From: Calditrichota bacterium
GTDB taxonomy: Bacteria > Calditrichota > Calditrichia > Calditrichales > Calditrichaceae
Assembly: GCA_024278755.1 (NCBI GenBank)
Contig: JAJRSO010000037.1
Span: 1-64,000 of the forward strand
Reading direction: 5' to 3'
DNA: 64,000 bases
The notes beneath the pieces were generated by a model. The model saw nothing but the letters and a program-made list of their open reading frames with translations, made no database searches and was not told where the DNA came from. This document shows, one piece after another, positions 20,336 to 26,170 of the stretch (within the stretch, counting starts at the first letter, position 1; each line of letters begins with the position of its first letter). The position numbers were made by a program, and so were the translations under genes.

Positions 20336-20428
20336 TGTTTTCTCCAGAATTAGGTTTAGGGAAATGTAATCATTTGTAAGTTCATTTCCAATCCGCAGGA
20401 TAGCGGGCAGGTAAAGGCGGGAATTTAG

Positions 20429-21206
20429 TTTCCTCTTTACATACATTTCTGGTTCCCCGCCTGCCCGGGGATGACTTTCTCCTGAACCCATAAATAGTCA
20501 TTCCCACGAAGGTGGGAATCCAGTTAATCTTGTAATAAATTATCTTCGTACAAGTCCCGCCAATCTGGATTTGATTCCTCAATCAAACGAATTTTCCATG
20601 CACGATTCCATTTTTTGAGCTGTTTTTCTCTTATTATAGCATCTCGAATATCATCATATCTTTCTGCATAAACCAGAATATGTACTTTGTATTTCTTTGT
20701 AAATCCATCGTGTAAATCATTTTTGTGTTCATAAATGCGGCGAGCAATATTATTGGTGACACCAACATAAAGTGTTCCATTCCTTTTACTGGCAAGAATG
20801 TAGACATAGGCAGACATTTTTAAACTCTTTTAGTTTATTTTTACCTCTGGTTCCCCGCCTGCGCGGGGATGACTTTCTCCTGAACCCATAAATAGTCATT
20901 CCCACAAAAGTGGAAATCCAGTTTCCTCTTTACATACATTTCTGGTTCCCCGCCTGCGCGGGGATGACTTTCTCCTGAACCCATAAATAGTCATTCCCAC
21001 AAAAGTGGAAATCCAGTTTCCTCTTTACATACATTTCTGGTTCCCCGCCTGCCCGGGGATGACTTTTTCCTGAACCCATAAATAGTCATTCCCACGAAGG
21101 TGGGAATCCAGTTTCCTCTTTACATACATTTCTGGTTCCCCGCCTGCGCGGGGATGACTTTTTCCTGAACCCATAAATAGTCATTCCCACAAAGGTGGGA
21201 ATCCAG
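20429..21206. repeat. REPIN-like tandem array (five 75-bp cores) enclosing a GIY-YIG gene
   Basis: Cores of 75 bp run from CTGG to CCAG at 20449-20523, 20847-20921, 20942-21016, 21037-21111 and 21132-21206. Each core holds two inverted hairpins: TTCCCCGCC-TGC-GCGGGGATGACT, and AGTCATTCCCAC with GGTGGGAATCCAG, so it looks like a REP doublet. Cores 1-4 are joined by an identical 20-bp linker (TTTCCTCTTTACATACATTT), giving a 95-bp period. Between cores 0 and 1 the linker is replaced by the GIY-YIG gene. A degenerate core end (about 20410-20428) precedes the first linker. Confidence 0.85.
20524..20817 (-). CDS. Small GIY-YIG endonuclease-family protein
   Basis: The 97-residue protein has the compact GIY-YIG domain of the YhbQ/UPF0213 kind: YVYILAS and LYVGVTNNIARRIYEHK contain the two catalytic Tyr and Arg positions, and a Glu follows in the AIIREKQLKKWNRAWK helix. 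Its stop codon directly abuts the CCAG end of a repeat core, and its 5' flank runs into the next core. The gene thus takes the place of a 20-bp linker in the array, suggesting that gene and repeats move or spread together. Endonuclease activity is inferred from the family. Confidence 0.85.
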   Translation of the reverse strand: MSAYVYILASKRNGTLYVGVTNNIARRIYEHKNDLHDGFTKKYKVHILVYAERYDDIRDAIIREKQLKKWNRAWKIRLIEESNPDWRDLYEDNLLQD

Positions 21207-21238
21207 TTTCCTTTTTATAAAGGCCTTCGGGGGTGACG

Positions 21239-22267
21239 CTAATCAAGCACCGCTGTGTTGGGGAAATAGGTACTCCAGGCAAACCAGTAAGCCACCGTAA
21301 CCGGAACTGCCTCCAGACGCGTCCCTTTCAATTCTCCTTTAACACAAATACCCTGCGCCAAATCCCAGAGAGAATGTGTGGCCATATCTGTATACAAACG
21401 CATCTGTTTTTGTTTTTCAAATGTAAAACGTTCATTTCTAAAAACCCGCACGCCCCCGTCTTCTGATTTTAAAATTAAAATCTTCGATTCTCCCAATACA
21501 GTGCCGAGCAGCTTATCAACCGTTAGCACTTCGTCCACTACGGCCAGAGTATGTACGCCGTAACGGATTCCGTAAATCAGTTTTTTGCCTGGCATTTTAT
21601 CCTTTAACCAGGAGGTTCGAAACAAGCCCAGCAATTTTGGGTTTTTAAAATATTTTTCATATGCCGAAGATCGGATTTGTTCATTCTTTTTCAATACTTT
21701 CGTTTGCGGATGCTGCTTGTACCAGGCAGACCAGCTTGTTTGCACTGCCGGCAGTGTTTTTAATACGTTTCCTTTTAACGGTCCCTGCAGCGCTTCACCA
21801 ACCACATGACTCCATAAACTACCCGTTTCTTTATCCATCATCACCAGGCTGTTTCGCCACAGCATGCCGCTGACAATGAGCGTGATTACCTGGTTAGCAA
21901 TTTTCCTGACGTACACGACGCCTGTATGACAAAGCGGTCACCAGGTGACGGCAACAGGGATATCCCCAAAATAATCGTTTACAATTTCGTGATGATCCAA
22001 TTGCCAAAGCGAATAGGCGTGTGCTTCTCCGTTTATCAATAAACCCATTACCGGTTCATCGGGGGACATTTGCGTAGCGGCCACAGTACCGGTGACGTAA
22101 AGCGGTTTGGTAATTGCCGGAATGACATTCGGATCTAATAGTTTAAAAAGCGTATCGCCTTTGATGACGGTTACCGCCTGCGGCGACTTGCCCTGGGAGA
22201 AAACACTTACGGGAATAAGAAAAAAGATATAAACGAGTACAAAAGAATAAAACTTTGACTTAGGCAT
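21239..22267 (-). CDS. DUF3179 protein with in-frame UGA at a CxxC position (candidate selenoprotein)
   Basis: Translation from 22267 gives a signal peptide (to about residue 25) and then DUF3179 sequence. The UGA codon at 21938-21940 falls in VTW-UGA-PLCHTG at residue 110. The same frame continues for 232 residues with family motifs (TGSLWSHVVGEALQGPLKG, then LPAVQTSW) and ends at 21239. DUF3179 proteins normally read VTxCPLC here, so UGA replaces the first Cys of a CxxC pair and creates UxxC, the classic selenocysteine arrangement. A small hairpin with a G-starting loop lies about 15 nt after the UGA. Read without recoding, the gene is split into two pieces. The alternative is a Cys-to-stop mutation, and nearby genes do carry nonsense codons. 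No Sec machinery lies in the window. Confidence 0.65.
21910..21928 (-). promoter_or_regulatory. Candidate bacterial SECIS hairpin
   Basis: On the mRNA, CATACA and TGTACG pair (four continuous base pairs TACA/TGTA plus C-G beyond an A-C mismatch) around the loop GGCGTCG. The loop starts 16 nt after the UGA, and G is its first base. That agrees with the usual bacterial SECIS rules, but the stem is short. Confidence 0.4.
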
Positions 22268-22364: not shown

Positions 22365-22826
22365 TTATACTTTTAGCGGATCCTGTATGGATGAAGGATT
22401 CCAATACTTTTTTAAAATATGTTTAATATTGCGGCAATCGGCAAATTCCGAATACACCGGACAGATGCTGCAATCTTCTGTTCCGCAAACAGAGTCTGCA
22501 TTTTTAGAAATCCAGCAGGGATCCTGGGAATCCTGATAAGCCGGACAGTTTTGTCTTTCTTCTTCGGAACAGTTTTTTATTTTCCAACAGGGCAGAGTCG
22601 AAAATACCATGCGGATTCCCGCTAAATTCAGACCTTTTTCATTGATCATATCACGAATACAGGCAATGCGCTGAATGTCCTTGTCTGTATACGAACGGTG
22701 CTGTCCTTTGCTCTTTTGCGGAAGAATTAAGCCTTCGTTTTCGTATAAACGCAGAGTAGCGACAGAAATCCCAAACATTTTAGCCACGACGCCAATCGGA
22801 TAAAGAATAGATTCATTTATTTTCAT
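22365..22826 (-). CDS. MerR-family regulator with Cys-rich C-terminus
   Basis: The 153-residue protein has the MerR winged helix (YPIGVVAKMFGISVATLRLYENEGL, then HRSYTDKDIQRI) followed by eight Cys at about 80, 86, 94, 104, 114, 119, 122 and 131 (PCWKIKNC, NCPAY, PCW, CGTEDCSICPVY). The pattern suggests a metal or Fe-S/thiol sensor domain. The gene at 26170 encodes a paralogue with the same Cys layout. It lies between the DsrE-like gene and the DUF3179 gene, all on the minus strand. MerR proteins usually act at promoters with long spacers; its target is not shown. Confidence 0.85.
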   Translation of the reverse strand: MKINESILYPIGVVAKMFGISVATLRLYENEGLILPQKSKGQHRSYTDKDIQRIACIRDMINEKGLNLAGIRMVFSTLPCWKIKNCSEEERQNCPAYQDSQDPCWISKNADSVCGTEDCSICPVYSEFADCRNIKHILKKYWNPSSIQDPLKV

Positions 22827-22901: not shown

Positions 22902-23410
22902 TTAAATAAAAATAATGGGACCGCCGGCCGCTTTTTCATAAAACTGACCAACCGTCAGGACTTCGTCCACTTCATCCACTAAATCATCCTTCTGCAGTTT
23001 AAACATATCCATTGCCAGTTTACAGGCATAAATATTTCCACCGGCGTCACTAATCATTTCCAAAAACTCATCCACCGGCGGAATATCAAGATTTTCCATT
23101 TCATTTTTCATCAGCCAGCTTGCAAAATTAGAGATCCCCGGAACCGCGCCTAACAGAGTGGGAAAAGGCATGGTAATGGGCATTTTTAACATGGGCATTG
23201 CCATATTCAACGCGGGATTTCCAACCGTTGAAACACGAAGCTTTTTTACCATTTTTTTAGCAGGGCGTTTAAGCCGAAGAACGTAAAAAAGATATTTGCT
23301 TCCATGCCTTCCATACGGGCGCCGTTCCCCATTATCAGACCCGGATAGACGCCTTCGAGTGAACCCTGAGCCACAATAATTGATACTTTTTTAATTTTTT
23401 CTTCTGCCAT
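22902..23410 (-). CDS. DsrE-family protein split by an A7 frameshift site
   Basis: An ATG at 23410 with GGAG upstream opens MAEEKIKKVSIIVAQGS, then YPGLIMGNGARMEG, and ends after 54 residues at TAA 23246-23248. Just before this is CTA-AAA-AAA-TGG, containing the slippery heptamer A-AAA-AAA. Shifting -1 continues as MVKKLRVSTVGNPALNM to 22902, with the conserved Cys in GGNIYACKLAMDMF. The joined product (about 169 residues) has the length and order of a DsrE2-like protein. The downstream part can also start at the ATG overlapping the upstream stop (ATGGTAA). Programmed -1 shifting, transcriptional slippage, a one-base deletion and a homopolymer sequencing error are all possible. Role: sulfur-relay or membrane-linked sulfur handling with the adjacent TusE/DsrC and SQR. 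Confidence 0.7.
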
Positions 23411-23434: not shown

Positions 23435-23752
23435 TTAAACGCAACCGTGTGGTTTAGACAGTCCGGCAACGTACGATGCTTTTTTACCAGGACCTTCAGG
23501 AAAGAGATCGTATAAATCCTTAGTAGGGATTCCGCCGGCATTTTTCATACGCCGGATTGAGGGGACCTGTCCTTTTTCCGCAAAATCCTTACGCATAAAG
23601 CGAACTACTTTCCAGTGTCCTTCCGTCAGTTCGGAAATCCCCATATCGGCAGCCAGCTCGGGCGCCATTTCTTCTGTCCAGTCATCCGGATTTACCAAAA
23701 AGCCCTCTTCATCTACCTGTACGGTTTTACCCGCAATTATTTTCTCAGCCAT
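23435..23752 (-). CDS. TusE/DsrC-family sulfur-carrier protein
   Basis: The start at 23752 (MAEKIIAGKTVQVD) has AGGAG 8 nt upstream; a longer start adds 12 residues unlike the family. The 105-residue product has DEEGFLVNPDDWTEEMA, the EGHWKVVRFMR helix and the C-terminal arm ending GLSKPHGCV. The penultimate Cys104 (CysB) is present, while the position 11 residues before it, Cys in true DsrC, is Ser93. This fits a TusE-like carrier that holds persulfide on one Cys rather than a DsrC that forms a trisulfide. It sits between DUF1641 and DsrE genes. Confidence 0.88.
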   Translation of the reverse strand: MAEKIIAGKTVQVDEEGFLVNPDDWTEEMAPELAADMGISELTEGHWKVVRFMRKDFAEKGQVPSIRRMKNAGGIPTKDLYDLFPEGPGKKASYVAGLSKPHGCV

Positions 23753-23794
23753 ATCAAATCTCCTAAAGTTTAAATTATGTATACTCAAGTGTAT

Positions 23795-24464: not shown

Positions 24465-25697
24465 TTATTGCCTCTTCTTTCCCGCCATGGTCATCTGTGC
24501 TTCAATGGGCAACTCGGCGCCTTTTAATAACAGATTCCAGTAAACCCAGCGAAAGGTCATTTTACCCCAATGGTTCATTCGGGTTTCTTCTAACAGAGAA
24601 AAGGGGCCAACGCCTGGTAAGGGAAATTTCCCGGGTAACGGTTCCACATCATAATTAAAATCAATTAAAATACCTTTGCCAAATCCAGATTCGATAAAAC
24701 AATTGGCATGACCGTCAAACGCCTTCTTTAACGGACGTCCATCGATGGCACGCTGAAAATTTTCGAACAGTACGTCCGCCTCGAAATGGGCAACGGAACC
24801 GGCTTTGGAACTGGGCAGATCCGTGGCGTCACCAATCACAAAGATGTTCTCATATTCTTTAGACTGAAGCGTATTCGGATCGGTTGGAATGAAGTTTAAG
24901 TCATCTCCCATGTCCGAACGCTCTATAAGGTCGGAACCCATATTGGTAGGTATGGTAACCAGTAAATCATAATTAATCTCTTTATCGTCAAAGGAAATGA
25001 TTTTGTTATTGGCGCTATCCACCCGGCCGGTGCCGAAATCCGAAACGATATGAACATTCTTTTTCTCCAGAAACTGGCCTAAAAACTTTGATGCAATGGG
25101 TTTTGTGAAAGCGCCCGGCAAGGGCGTTACATATTCAATTTCAACCTTGTCACGAATCCCCTGTTCCGTAAACCACCAGTCGGCAAGGAAGACAAATTCG
25201 AGCGGAGCGACCGGACATTTAATGGGCATCTCTACAATATTTAAAACCATCTTCCCGCCTTCCCAATACTTAAGGAAGTTACGTAGGGCAAGAGCGCCTT
25301 CGATGGTATAAAAATCAAAAATGTTTTTATACCAACCGTCTCCGGCCATGCCTTCCGTCTCAGCAGGATGTACCTTGCTGCCTGTGGCAATTATTAGATA
25401 ATCATAACTTATTATTTTACCATCGGCTAATTTAACGCGGTTCTTTTTGGGTTCAATTACGTCAATTTTGGACATGATCACATCAACGCCCGGAGGATAA
25501 AAATCGCGTTTGGGTTTGATGACATCTTGTTTATTATAAATCCCAAAAGGGATAAACAGAAAGCCCGGCTGATAATAATGTGTTTCAAATTCATCGATCA
25601 GCGTGATCTGCCATTCCTGTTCGTCCAGCACAGGCCTGAGTTTATTTACCATCATGGTTCCGGCTGTACCGCCGCCGAGGATTAATAGACGTTTCAT
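24465..25697 (-). CDS. Sulfide:quinone oxidoreductase-like flavoprotein
   Basis: The 410-residue protein opens with the FAD-binding LLILGGGTAGTMMVNKL, has a second nucleotide motif region (YDYLIIATGSKVHP) and the FAD-pyrophosphate motif IFVIGDATDLPSSKAG. Two Cys, Cys161 in IKCPVAPLEF and Cys333 in ANCFIE, are placed as in SQR-type enzymes that form a redox-active disulfide/persulfide. The C-terminal region FRWVYWNLLLKGAELP could be an amphipathic membrane-binding helix. It likely oxidises sulfide to polysulfide or persulfide and reduces quinone at the inner membrane. First enzyme gene of the operon, 32 bp after the merR-like gene. Confidence 0.85.
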   Translation of the reverse strand: MKRLLILGGGTAGTMMVNKLRPVLDEQEWQITLIDEFETHYYQPGFLFIPFGIYNKQDVIKPKRDFYPPGVDVIMSKIDVIEPKKNRVKLADGKIISYDYLIIATGSKVHPAETEGMAGDGWYKNIFDFYTIEGALALRNFLKYWEGGKMVLNIVEMPIKCPVAPLEFVFLADWWFTEQGIRDKVEIEYVTPLPGAFTKPIASKFLGQFLEKKNVHIVSDFGTGRVDSANNKIISFDDKEINYDLLVTIPTNMGSDLIERSDMGDDLNFIPTDPNTLQSKEYENIFVIGDATDLPSSKAGSVAHFEADVLFENFQRAIDGRPLKKAFDGHANCFIESGFGKGILIDFNYDVEPLPGKFPLPGVGPFSLLEETRMNHWGKMTFRWVYWNLLLKGAELPIEAQMTMAGKKRQ

Positions 25698-25729: not shown

Positions 25730-26170
25730 TTAGTCTCGTGTATGTCCGAAAATCACTTCTTTTAATTTAGAACAGTTAATTTCAATTCGATAGACTGCGC
25801 AGGAACGACAATCTTCAAGTTCGCATTTTTTGCCCACTCCAACCGTACTCCAACAGGGGCCGGCCGCTTCGTAATAGGCCGGACAATTACGGCATTAGCT
25901 ATCCAAACCGCCCTTAAACTCCCAGCAGGGAATAAAGGACATGATACGTTTAATACCCTGAATATTAATGCCGTATTCTTTGATCATTTTGCGGATACAA
26001 CGCAGCCGTTCCAGATCGTGCATGGAATACATGCGCCGGTTAGTTTCCGTTTTAAAAGGGATAATTAACCCTTCCTGTTCATAGAGGCGCACCGTCTGAA
26101 CGGCAATGCCTAATTTCTTGGCGATAATGCCGATATTAAATACCGGTTCGTAGATATCCATATTTTCCAC
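25730..26170 (-). pseudogene. Second Cys-rich MerR-family regulator, interrupted by an in-frame TAA
   Basis: Residues 1-91 carry the MerR HTH (FNIGIIAKKLGIAVQTVRLY) and PCWEFKG. TAA at 25895-25897 then interrupts. The same frame continues with CRNCPAYYEAAGPCWSTVG and CELEDCRSCAVY, and stops at 25730-25732. The restored 146-codon frame closely parallels the regulator at 22365-22826, including the Cys spacing. The truncated product keeps the DNA-binding and dimer helix but loses nearly all sensor Cys. It could be a pseudogene, a sequencing error or a constitutively acting form. It is the first gene before the sqr operon. Confidence 0.75.

Follow-up and report, generated by a model that had tools for sequence, protein, structure and literature searches.

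A DUF3179 gene of a Calditrichota bacterium with an in-frame UGA very probably read as selenocysteine

Proteins of the DUF3179 family (PF11376) have been tabulated among the predicted prokaryotic selenoproteins, with their selenocysteine (Sec) site described as UxxC/T (PMC9312934, 2022). A later table of predicted selenoproteins lists the family in the same terms and cites Zhang & Gladyshev 2007 and the delta symbiont of Olavius algarvensis (PMC13188914, 2026). The bacterial SECIS element (bSECIS) has been given a geometry rule, namely a 3-9 nt loop having G among its first two positions, a stem of 4-16 bp and a distance of 16-37 nt from the UGA, as well as an energy rule, namely an MFE at or below -7.5 kcal/mol (PMC13188914). 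The gene described here resembles the listed Sec-DUF3179 proteins by family and motif description, since it belongs to the same Pfam family and has a UxxC site, but it comes from another phylum, Calditrichota. The earlier note on this DNA had called it a candidate new selenoprotein: its being a selenoprotein is strongly supported, whereas the family is not new, having been tabulated in 2022 and 2026. To the listed UxxC/T forms, the pooled survey presented here adds UxxA, UxxE, UxxV, UxxI and UxxR, together with a half-length form. In the literature collection searched, no paper combined Calditrichota or Calditrichaeota with the selenocysteine terms used. No NCBIfam model matched these DUF3179 proteins, and such genes are thus probably annotated as truncated fragments.

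The window, that is, the whole 64,000-nucleotide stretch that was analysed, lies on contig C25 of an assembly of 3.94 Mb. The following features define the gene.

21239..22267 (-), DUF3179 gene of 342 aa with predicted Sec at residue 110 (profile match, homologues)
22193..22267 (-), probable signal peptide for export at the N-terminus, residues 1-25, ...FFLIPVSVFS-QG (by eye)
21938..21940 (-), in-frame UGA, codon 110, in the motif VTW-U-PLCHTGVVY (UGA in the same column at 51 homologous sites)

The frame running from 22267 to 21239 holds a single TGA, at codon 110, after which it continues for 232 codons up to a TAA; no other lesion is found across the 342 codons. Its product matches PF11376 with 242.5 bits (cut-off 27, 8.4e-72) over residues 48-338 and profile positions 3-292, and this match covers both flanks of the TGA without a break. 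The Sec site lies in the N-terminal half, and the C-terminal half fills the rest of the 292-position Pfam domain. Alignment to the family places the TGA at the Cys of the CPL motif, exactly where it had been claimed to sit, and the coordinates, the motif and the 232 codons reported from the first reading are all correct. The preferred reading, to which a probability of about 0.95 is assigned on comparative sequence evidence, is that the product is an exported, full-length selenoprotein of the DUF3179 family, with UGA 110 read as Sec by means of the downstream hairpin. This reading is strongly supported by the Sec machinery of the genome, the exchange of UGA and Cys among homologues, the covarying hairpin, purifying selection and the co-occurrence with selA; taken together, they make the comparative argument for Sec in this exported and uncharacterised family a clear one.

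The neighbouring genes, among which DUF1641 is also found, include several of sulfur metabolism.

22365..22826 (-), MerR-family regulator with a C-terminal Cys cluster (profile match; functional link to DUF3179 putative)
22902..23410 (-), DsrE2 gene, interrupted by the loss of 1 nt from an A-run (functional link to DUF3179 putative)
23435..23788 (-), DsrC/TusE-family sulfur relay protein (TIGR03342, over cut-off)
24465..25697 (-), type III sulfide quinone reductase, SQR (NF049943 'selenoprotein subtype', 669.7 bits, cut-off 525)

These adjoining same-strand genes of sulfur metabolism could suggest that the Sec protein acts with SQR, DsrC and DsrE2 in a local pathway of persulfide or sulfide oxidation. 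However, none of MerR, DsrE2, DsrC, DUF1641 and SQR was found at the remaining Calditrichota loci that were retrieved around DUF3179 genes. The neighbours of the orthologues in genomes G005 and G036 are not sulfur-like by inspection, and G005 has its closest DsrE2 on a different contig from its DUF3179 orthologue. A sulfur-operon function was rejected because the gene context is not conserved, and participation in such a pathway is improbable. The sulfur-redox neighbours pointed out previously are therefore real at this locus, but no conserved link was recovered elsewhere. Two further observations concern the surroundings. The SQR gene has no in-frame UGA, and the HxxU motif listed for its subtype seems to correspond to HANC here. 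Between the hydrolase and DUF3179 genes, at 20390-21220, an array of direct repeats that differ very little from one another, CCCGCCTGCGCGGGGATGAC... and ATTCCCACRAARGTGGRAATCCAG, was noticed by eye.

The same neighbourhood bears on a second alternative, according to which the TGA is a plain nonsense mutation or a sequencing error in a decaying gene. DsrE2 carries its 1-nt deletion, and a MerR-like ORF at 25750-26170 (-), which resembles the MerR gene at 22365-22826, is interrupted by an in-frame TAA after GGLDS, beyond which the frame goes on (CRNCPAYYEAAGPCW). The split of DsrE2, a gene that is intact in G005 and G001, may reflect an assembly error, a pseudogene or a slippage site. The cluster of nonsense codons that had been given as a reason for caution is thus present, but it lies in neighbouring genes and outside the DUF3179 gene, which is otherwise free of lesions. 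Moreover, the NG86 dN/dS between the window gene and its G005 counterpart is about 0.22 upstream and 0.18 downstream of the UGA, and further DUF3179 pairs give a similar pattern, with dS near saturation in both cases. As judged from these alignments, purifying selection acts on the sequence 3' of the UGA just as it does on the 5' part, and the random decay of homologues that would have spoken against a selenoprotein is not observed.

Against decay also stands the recurrence of the UGA in homologues. The sites were pooled from 40 Calditrichota genomes, from 119 genomes belonging to the same phylum as an Acidobacteriota MAG and from a named genome scan. Among the 91 pooled sites, which span several phyla, the column aligned with residue 110 holds UGA in 51 and Cys in 37, the remainder being two Ser and one misaligned Gly. 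Three DUF3179 genes are found in the genome itself: the window gene, a Cys form (C13, ISYCPLTGS) and a shorter paralogue with TGA in the identical column (C73, VAYUPLEKL). The presence of UGA in the same column at 51 homologous sites, including this second gene of the same genome, excludes chance, and a nonsense mutation or sequencing error in a decaying gene is very unlikely. In a tree built with the Sec site masked, the Sec/Cys label takes 5 changes, compared with 28.5 in shuffles, and at least three of the 5 are forced by well-supported branches. The group of the window gene, of UPLC(H/Y/F)T type (n=16), comprises 15 Sec forms and one Cys form from a Bacteroidetes-titled MAG. The residue following UPL is Cys in this group and Ala in a UPLA group; short forms have Glu, Val, Ile or Arg there. 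The UxxC arrangement first noted in the window gene thus holds for that gene but not as a general rule, since UxxA, UxxE, UxxV and UxxI also occur among Sec forms. The survey broadly extends Sec-DUF3179 in Calditrichota and Acidobacteriota; a search for viral relatives of the protein found none. A divergent long DUF3179 gene (L074, 4340-5344, (-)) has a same-column UGA in the motif UVVCNSG and sits on a very long branch (4.58).

The machinery needed to decode such a codon, whose presence had been proposed as a check, was found in the same genome: selA (502 bits), selB (338 bits), a tRNA-Sec (68 bits; called SeC with anticodon UCA by ARAGORN) and two copies of selD, one with its own in-frame TGA. 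Of 13 Calditrichota genomes having Sec-form DUF3179, 12 carry selA, as against none of the seven Cys-only genomes (p 1e-4; as the compared genomes are related and thus not independent, p values make the evidence look stronger than it is). The Cys-only genomes are G013 and G015-G020, and as six of the seven share one order, they amount to about two independent losses and not to seven. The one exception on the Sec side is G036, in which selA was not found, possibly owing to MAG incompleteness.

The remaining component is an RNA structure downstream of the UGA.

21906..21924 (-), SECIS-like hairpin in the coding RNA, with seven stem columns, six of the seven paired in the window gene (compensatory changes; absent from Cys homologues)

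The first reading had described a short hairpin 16 nt after the UGA with a G-first loop. A hairpin does exist, but its 5-nt loop, CGUGU (21917-21913, (-)), starts 20 nt past the UGA and has its G in second position, whereas the conserved stem begins 13-15 nt past the UGA. With this loop, this distance and a covarying stem, it conforms to the bSECIS geometry rule. Taken alone, it is weak: free folding gives an MFE of -6.6 kcal/mol (z +0.85), constrained folding gives -7.4 kcal/mol, just short of the quoted -7.5 (several homologues pass), and a synonymous shuffle of the window gene alone is not significant (P 0.42). Folding the nucleotides after the UGA, as had been suggested, thus says little for the window sequence by itself but is favourable by comparison with homologues, and it is this comparative evidence that carries the claim. 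Across 25 Calditrichota Sec sequences, 86.9% of the stem cells pair, both-sided stem changes number 17 compared with 5.5±1.8 in shuffles (0/500), and shifting the register away from the conserved one lowers the score greatly. In a wider set, 50 Sec forms have on average 6.06 pairs of 7, against a synonymous-codon expectation of 4.60±0.12, whereas 36 Cys forms have 3.03, against 3.12±0.14 (Mann-Whitney p 1.6e-12 for Sec versus Cys forms). The loop reads xGU in 49/50 Sec forms and in 9/36 Cys forms. By group, the mean is 6.9 pairs in UPLC, 6.5 in UPLA and 6.0 in short forms; a few divergent Sec forms (USLC, UTLC, UALC, UVVC) fall outside this register. Cys-type proteins such as C13 (CPLTGSG) belong to the same family, have Cys in the Sec column and are probably exported too, but they differ from Sec forms by lacking the UGA and by a hairpin pairing at chance, and in G013 and G015-G020 they occur without selA. 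The hairpin is persuasive only through such comparison, and its covarying versions across this one family are a useful natural collection of bacterial SECIS variants.

These data leave hardly any room for an organism-wide reassignment of UGA to a standard amino acid: TGA is readable in the DUF3179 gene, but it terminates 6/43 long ORFs in the window and more ORFs elsewhere in the genome, the Sec machinery is complete, and the hairpin is specific to UGA forms. Synthesis of one polypeptide of 109 aa and another of 225 aa, the latter from a GTG at 21916, in place of a single Sec protein is just as implausible, although both ORFs exist mechanically, since the domain spans the UGA, homologues with Cys consist of one chain, the Sec site lies inside a beta domain modelled with high confidence (pLDDT 95.6) and the GTG falls in the hairpin loop.

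If UGA 110 is read as Sec, SelB and the tRNA-Sec(UCA) would decode it under the direction of the hairpin, and the protein would cross the membrane by means of its signal peptide and function beyond it, where the selenol would be the reactive group. Since the site is UxxC, a selenenyl-sulfide with Cys113 is possible in the window protein. The other Sec groups, however, have no Cys at that position, and in 5/17 short forms no further Cys is found within 120 residues after the U or 60 before it. The selenol would thus be required and the UxxC partner not, and this dispensable second Cys narrows the possible chemistry. A more likely common mechanism is a lone selenol that serves either as a nucleophilic or redox group, returned to its reduced state by a separate partner, or as a ligand for a metal; the role would be that of an extracytoplasmic redox site or ligand.

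The AF2 model has a pLDDT of 89.4 in full and 95.6 in its N-terminal domain, the N-terminus itself being of low confidence. Foldseek returned no strong match for the AF2 models, but Rieske domains head both lists (E 0.009 for the full model, 0.05 for the N domain) and make up many of the leading matches, with TM by target of 0.49-0.60 for the small Rieske matches. A sequence search found no solved homologue (best E 0.55), profile comparison of DUF3179 with Rieske by hhalign gave a probability of 0.4%, and the CxH...CxxH cluster ligands of Rieske proteins were sought in the DUF3179 sequence and not found. Homology to Rieske proteins by sequence was rejected on the hhalign result. DUF3179 thus shares with Rieske ferredoxins and domains (3gce, 4nbc_F, 5cxm) a weak resemblance of predicted fold but differs from them in having no cluster motifs, and this likeness is a lead rather than a claim of homology.

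The least expected part of the survey is the short, essentially all-Sec subfamily. Its members, of about 225-265 aa, include the second Sec gene of the same genome, and this half-length, lipoprotein-like subfamily without a UxxC partner may be new. It is tentatively pictured as essentially Sec-only, with a lone Sec and no UxxC partner, on the fold of a cluster-free relative of Rieske domains, although this combination is somewhat doubtful. If true, the subfamily would have an extracytoplasmic selenol site of a new kind, at a position shared with the window gene. Lipobox-like N-termini were noted in short forms at L003 (1480-2175, (-), the C73 gene of the same genome), L043-L046 and L065-L073, and all 17 motif-bearing copies have Sec. 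Short copies are sometimes arranged in tandem (L065, L066, L067), and L067 holds one more divergent copy, with Ser in the motif YSGFFEK.
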